Shown piece after piece: positions 3,786-60,916 of a stretch of DNA of 64,000 bases; position 1 is the stretch's first letter; each line of letters begins with the position of its first letter. Below the pieces are notes generated by a model. It was not told the DNA's origin. It searched no databases and was given only the letters and a program-made list of their open reading frames with translations. The translations under genes were made by a program, and so were the position numbers. The DNA is from Bacteroidales bacterium (GTDB lineage Bacteria > Bacteroidota > Bacteroidia > Bacteroidales > UBA932). The stretch spans positions 62,001 to 126,000 of the forward strand of contig JAFRNC010000005.1 in the NCBI GenBank assembly GCA_017430365.1. Reading direction: 5' to 3'.

Positions 3786-3875
3786 CCGCATCCCGGCTAT
3801 ACCGCCGGCCTGACTGTTAAGCCACCGGCCAGTCTCCGCTGCTTAGTTTCTACTGCCAGTTTTCGGCTGCCCTTT

Positions 3876-52118: not shown

Positions 52119-52132
52119 CGGCCGCCCGATTT

Positions 52133-52249
52133 TTCCGCTGCAACGGACACAATTGGTTTACAGGCGTTTATGCAAAGTGATCCCCCTCGTTTTGAGGGGG
52201 ATCAACTTTTATAAGTCGCTGATTGACTGATGCGTCCGTCGCAGCGGAA
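52133..52249. repeat. Nested palindrome repeat, copy 3 of 4 (inner arm decayed)
   Basis: Outer arms TTCCGCTGCAACGGACACAA (52133-52152) and TGCGTCCGTCGCAGCGGAA (52231-52249). The inner left arm TTTATGCAAAGTGATCCCCC is intact (from 52168) but the right arm reads GATCAACTTTTATAA instead of GATCACTTTGCATAA, so the stem is shorter. It lies between rhaD and the AT-rich MazG island. Confidence 0.93.
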
Positions 52250-52581
52250 AAAGGGGAACGGTACCGGCTCTGGACGGTCAGCTGCGGAAAATCACAGGAT
52301 CTGCCCTAGCAAATTACTGGGTTTCGTTGCGGAAAAGCAGGAAAGACTACAACCCGGAGAGATATACAGGCTGTCCGACAAACCCGATAATCAGCTGGAA
52401 CACATTAACGGTTTGAATGACGACGAAAAGCGGCAATATGTTCCCACCGGGCCAAAATCGGCTTGGTCGGTACACTAGTTGCCCTCTGAGTGGCTTATGC
52501 CCTACTTTGCTGTTCCAAGTGATTGTTGCTTTGAACTATCTCGAAATCACTATAGAGATAATCCTATCCGAATTATATTCC
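52250..52581. other. Gene-free interval before the MazG island
   Basis: No recognisable gene. Base composition falls from GC-rich to AT-rich along it. TGCGGAAAA occurs twice (about 52283 and 52330). An 82-codon open frame from 52230 starts inside the repeat and has no family features; I do not call it. Confidence 0.6.
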
Positions 52582-52589
52582 TATCTTTG
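52582..52589 (+). promoter_or_regulatory. -7 box TATCTTTG for the MazG-helicase pair
   Basis: Match to TAnnTTTG, 23 bp before the ATG at 52613, so the island has a native-type promoter. Confidence 0.65.
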
Positions 52590-52612
52590 CATATTACGAT
52601 TATCATTATATA

Positions 52613-52945
52613 ATGTCTGACGAAATCAAAGACCTGGCTCGCGAGATAGACGCATTTTCTCAGGAAAGGGATTGGGATCAGTTTCATAATCCAAAGGATC
52701 TCGCTATTGCTTTATCCATAGAATCCTCTGAACTCCTTGAGGAGTTTCTATGGAAACAGCCTGGTGAGGAAAAGATTGAAAAAGTCCGGGAAGAATTGGC
52801 TGATATATTCAACTACGCTTTGTTGATGGCTGGCAAATATGGCTTTGACGTTTCTGAAATCGTAAGGGATAAACTTGCCAAAAACGCCCTTAAATATCCT
52901 GTTGAAAAAGCAAAGGGTGTTGCTACGAAGTACAATGAGTTATAG
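52613..52945 (+). CDS. MazG-like nucleotide pyrophosphohydrolase
   Basis: A 110-residue all-alpha NTP pyrophosphohydrolase of the MazG-like/RS21-C6 class. The metal motif is in LSIESSELLEEFLWKQ and the second half EELADIFNYALLMAGKYG; the C-terminal ENALKYP-like motif appears as AKNALKYPVEKAKG. Enzymes of this class hydrolyse (d)NTPs to NMP and pyrophosphate. The gene is markedly more AT-rich than its neighbours. It overlaps the next gene by 11 bp, so both are one unit, which suggests a joint role. Confidence 0.9.
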   Translation: MSDEIKDLAREIDAFSQERDWDQFHNPKDLAIALSIESSELLEEFLWKQPGEEKIEKVREELADIFNYALLMAGKYGFDVSEIVRDKLAKNALKYPVEKAKGVATKYNEL

Positions 52946-54662
52946 CGATATCGAAACTTTCCGGTTCGACCAGTCTGGTCTTAATAGGGTTAAAAGTCTT
53001 CCTAAGGGATCCGATTGGCCTGTCGTTTATCTGATATCCAACTCACATCAGGTCTACATCGGTGAAACGAGCAGTGCCAGCATCCGTTTCAGGCAGCATC
53101 TGGACAATCCAGAACGAAAACGTCTGAAAGAAATTCATATATTGTTTGATACAGAATTCAATAAATCTGCTATCCTGGACATTGAGCAATCTCTAATCCA
53201 ATTGGTCTCAGCCGACAATATATATGAAATTCTAAACAAAAACGGAGGGCAGTCACAAAAACACAATTATTATCAACGGGAAAAGTATCAAGCCAAGATA
53301 AGCGCAATCTGGAGCCAACTCCAAAAAAAGAAATTGGCCACCAAGGATTATGAGGTAATTATCAATTCCGACCTTTTCAAATTCTCTCCTTATAATTCTT
53401 TGACTGAAGAGCAGACAGTGGCCTGCTTCACTGTTTTGGATGATGCTATAGACATGCTTAATAAAGACATTAAAGGTGCTTTTGTCCTGCACGGTGCGGC
53501 CGGAACGGGAAAAACAGTTGTATTGATCAATATCATAAACCGGTTGGTCAATGCCACTGACTTTGAAATGGATGATACGGACGTAGAGGAAGCATTGTCT
53601 CCATATTTAAGAATCCGCCGGAAAATTGCAGATTATGTAAATCAACACGGCCCCTTGAAAGTAGCGCTTGTATTACCCATGGCCTCCATCAGAAAGACAT
53701 TGAAAACCGTTTTCCGGAAGACAAAACATGGGCTCAAAGCTGACATGGTCATTGGCCCTGCAGATGTTTCAAATGAAGAATATGACATTCTTCTTGTCGA
53801 CGAGGCCCATAGGCTTCCTCAATATAAAAACATCAGCTGGAGAGGAACATATAAGGCAAATACCACATCCATATTCGGGCAATCTGCCAACCCGGAGAAA
53901 TATACTACACTGGACTGGATTCTACGACGCAGCAAATATTCGATTCTTGTCTATGACAATGCACAAACCGTCAAGGGCAGCGATATAACCGAGGAACAGT
54001 TTGTAAATGCGTTCGATAAAGAAGAGGTTGCAATTAAGCATTGGACCCTGCAGACTCAAATGCGATGCAAGGGAGGGCACGATTATATTGACTATCTGAA
54101 CGACATCTTTAATTGTAATAGTGACCTTCCCCGAAAAGAAATCATAGATTATGATTTCAAATTGTTTGATCATGTCGATGACATGGTTAAGGCAATCAAA
54201 GATAAAGACAAGGTCTTCGGACTATGCCGCACAGTTGCAGGTTATTCTTGGCGGTGGATTTCAAAAGGTTGCTCTTCTGTAGAAGAGGTTAGAAGACTGG
54301 GGCTCGAAGACATTACTATAGAAGGGCACAAATATATCTGGAATATGAGTGATAAGGAATGGATTCTCCGGCCCAGCGCTAAAGATGAAATCGGCTGTAT
54401 CCATACAACTCAAGGCTACGACCTCAATTATGTGGGTGTAATATTTGGCGAAGAGATTGATTATGATAAAGTCAACAACCAGATAACTATAGATCCTTCC
54501 AGACATTTCGATTCCAATGTTCAGAATGGGGCAAGTCCGGAACAATTAAAGCAATATCTGGTGAATTCATACAAGGTAATGATGTCCCGGGGAATCAAAG
54601 GCTGCTATGTATATGTCTGCAATCCTTCTCTGAAAGAATATCTGTCAAAGTATATCGGATAA
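52935..54662 (+). CDS. GIY-YIG nuclease fused to a DUF2075-type SF1 helicase/ATPase
   Basis: A 575-residue two-domain protein. Residues about 27-115 are a GIY-YIG nuclease domain: VVYLIS (30-35), VYIGET (39-45 region), Arg at 51-53, and Glu E84 in LDIEQSLIQLV. Residues about 150-575 are a P-loop helicase of DUF2075 type: Walker A GAAGTGKT (187-194), Walker B LLVDEAH (286-292), QMRCKGGHDY, and IHTTQGYDLNYVGVIFG and SYKVMMSRGIKGCYVY near the end. The ATG at 52935 overlaps the MazG gene. AT-rich, probably acquired. The domain pairing fits a DNA-targeting defence protein, but that is inference. Confidence 0.87.
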   Translation: MSYSDIETFRFDQSGLNRVKSLPKGSDWPVVYLISNSHQVYIGETSSASIRFRQHLDNPERKRLKEIHILFDTEFNKSAILDIEQSLIQLVSADNIYEILNKNGGQSQKHNYYQREKYQAKISAIWSQLQKKKLATKDYEVIINSDLFKFSPYNSLTEEQTVACFTVLDDAIDMLNKDIKGAFVLHGAAGTGKTVVLINIINRLVNATDFEMDDTDVEEALSPYLRIRRKIADYVNQHGPLKVALVLPMASIRKTLKTVFRKTKHGLKADMVIGPADVSNEEYDILLVDEAHRLPQYKNISWRGTYKANTTSIFGQSANPEKYTTLDWILRRSKYSILVYDNAQTVKGSDITEEQFVNAFDKEEVAIKHWTLQTQMRCKGGHDYIDYLNDIFNCNSDLPRKEIIDYDFKLFDHVDDMVKAIKDKDKVFGLCRTVAGYSWRWISKGCSSVEEVRRLGLEDITIEGHKYIWNMSDKEWILRPSAKDEIGCIHTTQGYDLNYVGVIFGEEIDYDKVNNQITIDPSRHFDSNVQNGASPEQLKQYLVNSYKVMMSRGIKGCYVYVCNPSLKEYLSKYIG

Positions 54663-54811
54663 GGCGAACCTTTTCTTTTGAGTCGCTCAGATTATATCTC
54701 CGGCCCAGAGCACTTTGAAGAAGTCTTTCACATAGTACATGGACAGGAGCAACCATATAATGATTGCCCTGCTGATGATGCCTGATGTCGTTATAGGATT
54801 AAACTCGTCAA

Positions 54812-57806: not shown

Positions 57807-59222
57807 ATGAAACGTTTTACTTTTCTTATGATCTTGTCGCTCTGCATTTCATCCTGCACTGCGACCGTTGCTCCGGAGCTGATGGAAATCACTCCGGGTC
57901 TGCGCCGCCACTATGATTCATTATGGCGTACCCGATGCTATGTTAATCCGTCTGACGTTCAACAATACATGAGGCTGAAAGCCTGGGCAAAAGCAGATGG
58001 AATGGCAACTGTCCAGCCTATTGTTTCCGGAAAATATACACTTGCATATCTTCTCACTTACAAAGACGGTTGGGAACTTATGTCAGCAGACATCCGTATG
58101 CCTCCTGTGCTGGCATTCAGCCGCGACCCGGTGTTTCCGGAAGACAATGCGGCATTCATGTCCTGTCTGTCCGGCGCTCTGGAAACCATCGAATTATTGA
58201 AAAAAGAGGTCATCCAAGTCCCTACATCCGATACTATCGCCAGAAACAACGCTTTGTTCTGGAAAAGGATACGGACATCCGAACCGAAAACAAAAGCGGA
58301 CGGAGATCCGGAAGAAGACGACAAATATTGGGAACTTCTCGATTCGCAATGGGTTGGGGATTTTGACGATTCCGTTGATCATCTTATTCATACACACTGG
58401 TATCAGGATTTACCCTGGAATATGTTCGCGCCGCTTGAAGCTCCCAACAGTATTTATAGAGATCCTGCTGGTTGCACTGCAATTGCGGCATCCCAAATGC
58501 TTTACTTTTTACAGGACACTCTTGGCCTCCCGGCCACGGCACCAACCAGCGGTTATTGTACAGGGTATTCATCGAACCTGACAGATACGACTTATCACCA
58601 GGATTTCGCCGGTTTTTCATCCAGTGCATGGGACAATATGGCAGAAACCGTTCCTGATATCTACTATGGAAAAAGTGATACGTTAAGCGCCTTATGGATA
58701 GGTTTTGTCGGCAAGAGCATCGGTACGAAGTATTCCCCTTCTGTTTCACAGGCTGATTTCGACAGTCTGCCTTCTTTCTTATTGAGCCAGGGCATCTTAT
58801 CTTCCCAACCGTTCAATTATAATGGACAAGTTGTATATTCTTGCATCAAGAATCAAAAGATTCCTGTTTTGATGTCTGCACATAGTATCCTGGATCACGA
58901 TTTCTGGGGGAATACCATCTATCGTAGCGGACATACTTTCATAGCGGATGCCGCAACTGCCTATTATACGATTTATGATGACACCTACGTCTGGACATCC
59001 CACACGGAAAACACGGTACACCAGTATGGCGACACGAAGGTCGAGCGGGATACCGTTCTAACCGGCAAATACATAAGGATGAACTGGGGCAATGACGAGC
59101 CGGTCCAGGACAATGTGTATTTTTCAATCTATGCCAACCACTTCAAGATATATATTGATGACAACCTCACCGACTTCCAGTACAATCTTAAAATGATCTA
59201 TGACTTTTCTCCGGCCAATTGA
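57807..59222 (+). CDS. C10-family (streptopain-like) cysteine peptidase lipoprotein
   Basis: A 471-residue papain-fold peptidase of family C10. Lipoprotein signal MKRFTFLMILSLCISSC (Cys 17). A propeptide-like region (about 25-170, with the KxVQPIVSGKYTLAYLLTYKDGWELMSADIRMPPVLAFS pattern typical of C10 propeptides) precedes the catalytic core: C223 in DPAGCTAIAASQM, H376 in RSGHTFIADA, and the Trp/Asn pair in MNWGND. Likely exported and active on host or competitor proteins. AT-rich for this genome. Its 3' end overlaps the convergent RNase HII end by 25 bp. Confidence 0.9.
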   Translation: MKRFTFLMILSLCISSCTATVAPELMEITPGLRRHYDSLWRTRCYVNPSDVQQYMRLKAWAKADGMATVQPIVSGKYTLAYLLTYKDGWELMSADIRMPPVLAFSRDPVFPEDNAAFMSCLSGALETIELLKKEVIQVPTSDTIARNNALFWKRIRTSEPKTKADGDPEEDDKYWELLDSQWVGDFDDSVDHLIHTHWYQDLPWNMFAPLEAPNSIYRDPAGCTAIAASQMLYFLQDTLGLPATAPTSGYCTGYSSNLTDTTYHQDFAGFSSSAWDNMAETVPDIYYGKSDTLSALWIGFVGKSIGTKYSPSVSQADFDSLPSFLLSQGILSSQPFNYNGQVVYSCIKNQKIPVLMSAHSILDHDFWGNTIYRSGHTFIADAATAYYTIYDDTYVWTSHTENTVHQYGDTKVERDTVLTGKYIRMNWGNDEPVQDNVYFSIYANHFKIYIDDNLTDFQYNLKMIYDFSPAN

Positions 59223-60898
59223 GAGTCATCTTCCAGGAGGCGGAACGATTTTCGGTGATATGGGGTGATCCCGAAGTCCTTTATTGCGCGTCTGTGCTCC
59301 TCGGTGGGATAGGCCATGTTGCGGTCCCAGCCGTATTGGGGATATTCTTTCGCGAGGGCACGCATATACTCGTCTCGGTGGGTTTTGGCAAGGACGCTGG
59401 CAGCGGCGATGGCCTGGACGGTGGCGTCGCCTTTGACTACGGTATGGGCCGGGGCGCCGTTCCATGGTTTGAAACGGTTGCCGTCAACCAGCACGAGATC
59501 CGGTTTCAGGGATAATTTATCAAGCGAACGCTTCATTCCTTCGATAGAGGCGTTCAAGATATTGATACGGTCGATCTCTTCGGCGCTGACAGCCGTTACG
59601 GCCCAGGCGAGGGCTTTTCTTTCGATTACAGGACGCAATTCATCCCGCTGGGCTTCGGTTAATTGTTTGGAATCGTTTAACAACGGATGTGAGAACCCTT
59701 CGGGAAGGATGACGGCAGCGGCGAAAACAGGCCCTGCAAGGCAGCCGCGGCCGGCCTCATCGCAACCTGCGATGAGGGCCCGGCTGCCGGAGAGCAACGC
59801 TCCGGCTTCCGCTATGCAGCGTTTCACATCGGGTTCCACTTCGGCGAGGGAATAAACGTCCGCAACACCGGCCTTTTTCCAGACTTGTTGCGGCAGCGAA
59901 CATTGTCCGCAGACCACAACCGGTTTTTTCCCATATTTCCTGCACAGGGAGATTATCCCCGAGACGAGTTTCCCATCGAGGCTCTGGCCATCGAACCGGC
60001 CCTCCCCCGTAATTACGAAATCAACCTCTGCGATCTTGGCCTCCAATCCGGCCATCTCTCCGAAAAGCCGCCATCCGGGCACCAGTTCTGCGCCAATCTT
60101 ATGTAATGCAGCACCAACACCTCCGGCGGCTCCTCCACCCGGCAGGAATGGATCGAGTCCGGCTTCCGCCGCAAATCTTTCCATTCGGCGTTCAAGCCGT
60201 TCCAACATTGCCTCGTCCGCCCCTTTCTGAGGTCCATAAACCATCGTCGCTCCGTTCAGACCTAGCAGGGGATTATCTACATCGCATGCTACCGTAATTT
60301 TCACGCTCTCGCTGATTTGGCGAATGAGCGCTGGCCTGGTGGAGCGGCAGGTTCTTTCGAGTCCACGCGCCCCCTCTGGGCTCGAAAAGGTTCTGCCGCG
60401 CTCAGGATAATTCGCCAAATCAACGAGAGCGCGTAGCATCCCTTCGCCACCGTCGTTGGTTGAACTGCCTCCGATGCCGATCACGATTTTCCGGCAGCCA
60501 CGGTCGGCGGCAGCGGCAATCAGGATGCCGAGGCCGTAAGTCGTGGTTATTTCAGGATTGCGTTCTTCCGGAGAGAGCATGGCAAGGCCGCAGACCTTGG
60601 CCATCTCGATAAAAGCCTGACGCCCGCCGTCAAACAGAAGTAACGGAACCTTGACCGGACGCATCAGGGCGTCGACAGTATCGATTTCAACGCGGCGGCA
60701 GCCATCGCCGAGGGCAGCCTCAACCACCTCCATCGATCCGTCTCCTCCGTCCGCCATGGGCAATTTGACGATATGGGCCTCATCTCCGCCCACAAGATGA
60801 CGTCTGACAGCGGTCTCAAGGGCATCAGCCACCCTGGCGGCGGAAAGGGAGCCCTTGAATTTGTCGGGAACTATCAGAATATTCCTTATCTTTGTCAT
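59198..60898 (-). CDS. Glycerate kinase fused to ribonuclease HII
   Basis: A 566-residue fusion. Residues about 1-368 are type-1 glycerate kinase (GarK/GlxK): ILIVPDKFKGSLSAARVADAL, PMADGGDGSMEVVEAAL, GIGGSSTNDGGEGMLRAL, ACDVDNPLLGLNGATMVYGPQKGA and ITGEGRFDGQSLDGKLVSGI. Residues about 373-566 are a complete RNase HII: D380 and E381 in GCDEAGRGCLAGPV, D472 in LVLVDGN and D491 in VKGDATVQA, then AYPTEEHRRAIKDFGITPYHRKSF. So it should both phosphorylate glycerate and cut RNA-DNA hybrids. Residues about 160-200 come from a 128-bp palindrome. The ATG at 60898 is chosen over a TTG at 60910. Confidence 0.92.
   Translation of the reverse strand: MTKIRNILIVPDKFKGSLSAARVADALETAVRRHLVGGDEAHIVKLPMADGGDGSMEVVEAALGDGCRRVEIDTVDALMRPVKVPLLLFDGGRQAFIEMAKVCGLAMLSPEERNPEITTTYGLGILIAAAADRGCRKIVIGIGGSSTNDGGEGMLRALVDLANYPERGRTFSSPEGARGLERTCRSTRPALIRQISESVKITVACDVDNPLLGLNGATMVYGPQKGADEAMLERLERRMERFAAEAGLDPFLPGGGAAGGVGAALHKIGAELVPGWRLFGEMAGLEAKIAEVDFVITGEGRFDGQSLDGKLVSGIISLCRKYGKKPVVVCGQCSLPQQVWKKAGVADVYSLAEVEPDVKRCIAEAGALLSGSRALIAGCDEAGRGCLAGPVFAAAVILPEGFSHPLLNDSKQLTEAQRDELRPVIERKALAWAVTAVSAEEIDRINILNASIEGMKRSLDKLSLKPDLVLVDGNRFKPWNGAPAHTVVKGDATVQAIAAASVLAKTHRDEYMRALAKEYPQYGWDRNMAYPTEEHRRAIKDFGITPYHRKSFRLLEDDSQLAGEKS
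60303..60430. repeat. Large imperfect palindrome inside the glycerate kinase coding region
   Basis: Arms 60303-60324 and 60409-60430 are complementary over 21 of 22 bases (core CTGATTTGGCGAAT / ATTCGCCAAATC), and an inner pair near 60340-60363 and 60379-60402 (GAGCGGCAGG..TTTCGAG with CTCGAAAAGGTTCTGCCGCGCTC) is also partly complementary. The 128 bp are read in frame as residues replacing the usual loop of the kinase between GMLRAL and ACDVDNP. Confidence 0.9.
60887..60894 (+). promoter_or_regulatory. -7 box TATCTTTG for the Mrp gene
   Basis: Match to TAnnTTTG, 40 bp before the ATG at 60935. It lies across the glycerate kinase start codon region, so the divergent units interfere. Confidence 0.62.
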
Positions 60899-60916
60899 CC
60901 TCTTGGACAATATTCA

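Follow-up and report, generated by a model that had tools for sequence, protein, structure and literature searches.

What is the function of a small, AT-rich pair of overlapping genes that stands isolated among housekeeping genes, and not within a defense island, and could it be an anti-phage system? A preliminary description of this locus had proposed a candidate defense module, composed of a nucleotide pyrophosphohydrolase and a nuclease-helicase. We analyzed the pair within the window, by which we mean the whole 64-kb stretch of DNA, and the argument refers to the following features.

52119..54811, no strand: inserted segment of 2.69 kb, flanked by the aldolase gene of the rhamnose operon and an ABC-transporter ATPase gene in convergent orientation
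52125..52257, no strand: copy of a palindromic repeat family (~125 bp), left edge of the insert
52582..52589, plus strand: TATCTTTG, promoter-like element upstream of mazG, from direct reading of the sequence
52613..52945, plus strand: mazG, predicted all-alpha NTP pyrophosphohydrolase, DCTPP1/RS21-C6-like, 110 aa (PF12643, PDB profile match)
52935..54662, plus strand: predicted GIY-YIG nuclease/SLFN-g3 superfamily-1-like helicase, 575 aa (PF09848, conserved motifs)
53019..53237, plus strand: GIY-YIG catalytic core, aa 29-101 (Y32, Y41-x-G43, R51, H55, E84, N101)
53478..54620, plus strand: helicase domain, aa 182-562 (Pfam span, near-universal conservation)

The gene pair and its base composition

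The two genes overlap as described previously: mazG (52613-52945) and the nuclease-helicase gene (52935-54662) both lie on the plus strand and share 11 bp. The ATG at 52935 is a better start of the second gene than the TTG further upstream, at which the mechanical open reading frame begins, and the resulting protein of 575 residues is consistent with the E84 and K193 numbering that was already in use. Upstream of mazG, we take TATCTTTG at 52582..52589 to resemble the Bacteroides −7 promoter element TAnnTTTG, and the same direct reading revealed no TTTG at −33 upstream of it. A small open reading frame at 52230-52478 was considered as a third component and rejected, as it has no Pfam match and no homologue in related loci; it is probably spurious. 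PF12643 and full-length PF09848 are each represented by a single gene in the genome, and these two genes are neighbors.

The cassette has a GC content of 0.412, versus a mean of 0.567 for 2,050-bp windows across the 64 kb, and all other cassette-sized stretches are above 0.43. The lower GC content claimed for the pair is also evident in the comparison with five neighboring genes (0.41 versus 0.58–0.60), and it extends to third codon positions, with GC3 values of 0.41–0.43 for the two genes and 0.72–0.80 for the five neighbors. A second AT-rich gene of the window (57807-59222, plus strand, GC ~0.46) encodes a C10-family (streptopain-like) cysteine peptidase (Pfam E=1.1e-11), and at 59198-60910 on the minus strand, glycerate kinase (PF02595, E=1.9e-106) and RNase HII (PF01351, E=6.1e-37) sequences share a single open reading frame, either because the two are unusually fused or because a stop codon has been lost.

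Insertion site and distribution

The aldolase and ATPase genes that flank the insert are 2,693 bp apart in the window. The same two genes are separated by 0–26 bp in five congeners and by ~140–170 bp in three others, and with flanks only 0–170 bp apart in at least eight congeners, the empty site is therefore shown. The cassette is a recent insertion that was acquired horizontally, and no integrase or transposase was found within the insert. The repeat copy that had been reported on the left side is real and covers 52125-52257, with arms at 52130-52151 and 52231-52252 that are 91% complementary. Its family is present genus-wide and occupies ~40 places in this genome at 76–87% identity, mostly matched on both strands, and further copies in the window lie near positions 3864, 40639, and 61845. 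The family resembles REP/MITE-type or terminator-like elements, and the copy at the edge of the insert is probably not part of the cassette function.

Counting the genome itself, any homologue was present in 4 of 61 relatives, 23 of 393 genomes of the order, and 24 of 395 genomes of the phylum, that is, in ~6% of the order and of the phylum, with many of the homologues being only remote relatives that carry a PD-(D/E)XK nuclease (PD-type; see below). The preliminary description had named an immobile core-genome gene pair as the finding that would speak against defense; this prevalence and the empty sites in congeners show a different picture. The empty sites, the GC3 gap, and the ~6% prevalence characterize the pair as accessory and horizontally acquired, as is to be expected of an anti-phage system.

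Predicted activities of the two proteins

The assignment of the first gene product as a nucleotide pyrophosphohydrolase is supported by its match to the MazG-like family PF12643 (Pfam, E=3.7e-18) and by the closest solved structures in the PDB, which are those of dCTP pyrophosphatase 1 (DCTPP1, E=7e-16). The metal-binding quartet ExxE...ExxD (E37, E40, E61, D64) is found in 100% of 50 relatives, in which W21 and H25 are conserved to 100% and W47 to 98%, and W21 and W47 align with the cytosine-stacking tryptophans W47 and W73 of DCTPP1. DCTPP1 prefers 5-modified dCTP. The complete DCTPP1-like site implies that this MazG is a predicted hydrolase of dCTP-like nucleotides.

The second protein, as had been claimed, is predicted to combine a nuclease with a helicase of the PF09848 family (SLFN-g3_helicase, formerly DUF2075; E=4.9e-65, profile positions 3-353 of 354). 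The helicase motifs are present over the full length, namely the Walker A motif GAAGTGKT with K193, the Walker B residues D289 and E290, Q344, R377, the QG motif at 493/494, and R552 of motif VI. A Schlafen AlbA-type core RNase domain had no Pfam match in the protein; Schlafen proteins proper share the helicase only. The N-terminal GIY-YIG domain is weakly recognized by Pfam in the window copy (E=0.004) and scores above the Pfam threshold in related proteins (E=1.3e-6 and 6.8e-5). Its catalytic residues are conserved to 100% in 28 GIY-type homologues, except for N101 with 96%, and the profile matches T4 endonuclease II (2wsh, the closest PDB entry, E=9e-4), I-TevI, and UvrC. In an AlphaFold2 model of the N-terminus (pLDDT 82), the top structural matches were mostly GIY-YIG domains of UvrC, with Foldseek E-values of ~0.04–0.06 and probabilities of 0.97–0.99 that are supportive rather than decisive; a full-length model computed from 4 sequences reached a pLDDT of only 48 and was set aside. 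Conservation, relatives, profile, and fold together rule out a chance match. The conservation in relatives bears out the earlier claim that both catalytic motif sets are intact, and intact nuclease and helicase motifs imply a predicted ATP-driven DNA cutting.

Conservation of the pairing

The MazG plus nuclease-helicase pair is a conserved two-gene unit. In a search by the helicase alone, a MazG gene was adjacent on the same strand in 36 of 39 full-length Bacteroidota loci, mostly overlapping or at a distance of up to 20 bp. MazG follows the helicase gene instead of preceding it in one locus of the same genus and in three further loci; as the pair is kept in at least four loci with reversed order, the adjacency has survived rearrangement. 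An adjacent MazG is lacking in 3 Bacteroidota loci and in about half of the homologues from plasmid and phage records, and the MazG partner is therefore not obligatory. An obligatory third gene was not found among the related loci. Directly upstream of MazG, a recurrent TPR protein is encoded in four nuclease-helicase loci (L072:6731-8302, L074:11714-12277, L081:11267-13228, L096:5176-7113), and a HELVH motif resembling that of zinc peptidases was read in the TPR protein near a MazG/McrB-like locus (L198:2177-3319); it is possible that the TPR protein is an optional sensor or protease.

Neighborhood analysis of DUF2075 with MazG had been suggested previously, and the pairing proved to be strongly conserved across phyla. 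Outside the Bacteroidota, it occurs on plasmids of the Bacillota genera Ligilactobacillus, Lactiplantibacillus, and Priestia, on a Halomonas plasmid, and on a haloarchaeal plasmid (Halalkalicoccus), some of the plasmid copies being on mobilizable plasmids. It is also present in viral records, namely a Microcystis phage record, gut phage-labelled contigs, and two IMG/VR contigs; a scan of viral contigs with the single protein as query gave no relatives, and with an alignment as query it gave five. On an L. plantarum plasmid (L127:1249-6644), two nucleotide pyrophosphohydrolase genes, one annotated as (deoxy)NTP type and the other as MazG, each adjoin a helicase gene, which is another sign of nucleotide hydrolases traveling with helicases.

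In the reverse direction, 17 of 30 MazG loci of the order have an adjacent SLFN-g3 helicase. In the remaining loci, MazG is alone or stands beside an HNH_2 endonuclease (two loci), a McrB-like AAA protein, or a HEC-01 pair, and in one nuclease-helicase locus an HNH_2 gene occupies the MazG position.

Two nuclease versions share one MazG family

The helicase tree consists of two clades, each with 100/100 support and with 27% identity between them. One clade carries the GIY-YIG domain and the other a PD-(D/E)XK domain, whose residues E69, D80, E98, and K100 are fully conserved in the PD-type proteins. The MazG proteins do not follow this division: their identity is 55.5% across nuclease types versus 55–57% within types, and well-supported branches force at least four re-pairings, a number that is approximate, since the tree was computed quickly and the protein is short. 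One MazG family that serves several unrelated nucleases would thus act on the nucleotide pool and not by contact with one toxin, and the MazG common to both types suggests an enzyme that acts on nucleotides rather than a dedicated antitoxin. On a gut phage-labelled contig (L135, MT838580.1:2689-6662), a PD-(D/E)XK-helicase, a MazG, and a GIY-YIG-helicase are encoded in a row, with one MazG between the two nucleases.

Neighboring defense genes

Plasmid copies frequently adjoin restriction-modification, McrB-like, or CRISPR genes. Their surroundings include HsdM/HsdS with an integrase, a McrB-like DUF3578 protein with HsdM/HsdS, a restriction endonuclease together with either DUF262 or, elsewhere, a DNA methyltransferase, and type III-A cas6/cas10. 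Around chromosomal copies, the PADLOC hits (138 genes from 20 loci) were not clearly above those in 121 control genes from the same contigs; since both gene sets gave hits, which were counted per family, we claim no enrichment for chromosomal copies. The proposed defense module is therefore partly supported: its mobile and accessory nature, the pairing, the intact catalytic sets, and the restriction and CRISPR neighbors on plasmids speak for it, and the chromosomal PADLOC hits did not exceed the matched control.

Functional interpretation

Architecture, mobility, and plasmid context lead to a defense reading, and an anti-phage role of the pair is likely, with a mechanism that we infer. In the interpretation that we consider probable, the cassette is a mobile anti-phage or anti-plasmid system of restriction type, in which helicase-guided cutting is combined with a MazG-type hydrolysis of dCTP. 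The helicase would locate and move along invading or replicating DNA, and the attached nuclease domain (GIY-YIG here and PD-(D/E)XK in the sister systems) would cut this DNA, as its active sites are intact. The co-transcribed MazG, with its DCTPP1-like active site, would hydrolyze dCTP-type nucleotides to the monophosphate and would thereby either starve the replication of the invader or remove modified dCTP that shields the invader DNA from cutting. The pairing, the empty site, the GC3 gap, the patchy presence, the nuclease versions, the re-pairing of MazG, and the restriction/CRISPR neighbors speak for a mobile defense system; against it stand the chromosomal neighbors that are not richer in PADLOC hits, the position of the window copy among housekeeping genes, and the non-obligatory MazG.

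The MazG could also protect the host itself: the nuclease-helicase would attack DNA with modified cytosine or other abnormal bases, and MazG would clean the host dCTP pool. The active-site match to DCTPP1, with its preference for 5-modified dCTP, agrees with this, as do the exchange of MazG between nuclease types and its adjacency to McrB-like and HNH nucleases, and some homologues are near DUF3578/McrB-like or DUF262 genes, which are relatives of modification-dependent systems. We nevertheless regard such self-protection as unlikely, as no modified-base-binding domain was identified, some copies adjoin type I or III restriction-modification systems instead, and the nucleotide specificity of MazG is not readable from sequence. 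Of the two pool-based readings, starvation or unmasking of the invader is favored over self-protection of the host. A more general version, which we put forward only as a long shot, is a restriction in which self and non-self are set by the nucleotide pool, with swappable nucleases that attack DNA with abnormal cytosine and a shared MazG in place of a protective methyltransferase. If this were true, the swappable set would comprise the GIY-YIG or PD-(D/E)XK nuclease-helicases and sometimes HNH or McrB-like nucleases, and the DCTPP1-like MazG would prevent the incorporation of the abnormal cytosine nucleotide into host DNA.

A DNA-damage response has to be considered, as several members of both helicase clades possess a C-terminal S24/LexA-like domain in which an A-G or C-G cleavage site, the Ser, and the Lys are kept. 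This domain suggests that the activity can be tied to RecA-signaled DNA stress, and it would fit a DNA-damage response equally well. The cassette would then be a module for replication stress or DNA repair with no antiviral role, in which an SOS-linked helicase-nuclease is combined with a house-cleaning pyrophosphatase, and the UvrC-like GIY-YIG fold is in line with this. Against this speak the patchy presence, the horizontal transfer, the many plasmid copies and those in some phage records, the restriction or CRISPR genes that are often adjacent, the interchangeable nuclease domains, which are a usual feature of conflict systems, and the lack of an S24 domain in the window copy; we consider a pure repair function doubtful.

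Two overlapping genes with the small one first, mobile and plasmid-borne, would also be the expected organization of an addiction pair, with the nuclease-helicase as toxin and MazG as antitoxin. This is improbable: intact homologues exist without MazG, the gene order flips, the MazG has a complete enzymatic active site, and the mixing of its lineage between helicase clades of 27% identity disfavors an antitoxin role. Least probable is a weapon used between mobile elements without serving the host, for which the mobilizable plasmids and phage-derived records can be quoted, since most Bacteroidota copies, including that of the window, are chromosomal without a recognizable element around them.

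The cassette, for which a mobile restriction-type system with dCTP hydrolysis remains our preferred reading, makes it directly testable why nucleotide-hydrolyzing enzymes accompany restriction-like nucleases. With its two genes on 2 kb, it is a compact clonable unit with clear point mutants, a large homologue family, and two nuclease versions, and among its natural variants some lack MazG, some have the gene order reversed, and some carry an S24 switch.

Relation to known systems

The preliminary description could not tie the pair to a named system, and the search of PADLOC-DB 2.0 agrees with this: no profile matched MazG, the nuclease-helicase gave partial matches only, and no system covers the pair. 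Nhi and AbiO likewise join a nuclease and an SF1 helicase in one protein, and weak matches of the window protein over the Walker A region were obtained for AbiO (1.1e-7) and Nhi (2.7e-6), with 1e-11 to 1e-12 for PD-type relatives. These matches cover ~60–90 of ~470 residues and are thus far from full length, and unlike Nhi and AbiO, the window protein has an SLFN-g3 helicase, a full-motif GIY-YIG domain, and a MazG partner. The PADLOC candidates PDC-S14, which shares the N-terminal GIY-YIG stretch of the window protein (E ~2e-7), and PDC-S41, whose alignment to the PD-type sister covers the nuclease and the helicase start (1.8e-15), are remote matches only, and both are single-gene candidates without MazG.

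Our literature search found no publication that joins DUF2075 with MazG or GIY-YIG; an earlier notice of such pairs is conceivable, and the 2015 survey by Burroughs of nucleotide-centric conflict systems may contain one. MazG-type pyrophosphatases have recently been predicted as defense proteins by DefensePredictor, the main text of which includes MazG among predicted, unvalidated defense domains and refers to this 2015 survey (PMC13092281). The passages on these MazG systems name no nuclease-helicase partner, and the terms “helicase” and “GIY-YIG” are absent from the main text (PMC13092281). As compared to DCTPP1/RS21-C6, the cassette MazG has kept the metal-binding and base-stacking residues (E=7e-16), but unlike DCTPP1 it is operonic with a nuclease-helicase. 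In its host takeover, phage T4 employs the GIY-YIG endonuclease II together with a dCTPase. This pair likewise combines a GIY-YIG nuclease with a dCTP-hydrolyzing enzyme, which we regard as a resemblance only, since the T4 pair has no helicase and the attack goes in the opposite direction. As their pairing recurs in several bacterial phyla, a haloarchaeon, and some phage records, MazG and the nuclease-helicase are a strong candidate for a distinct, restriction-like antiviral system.
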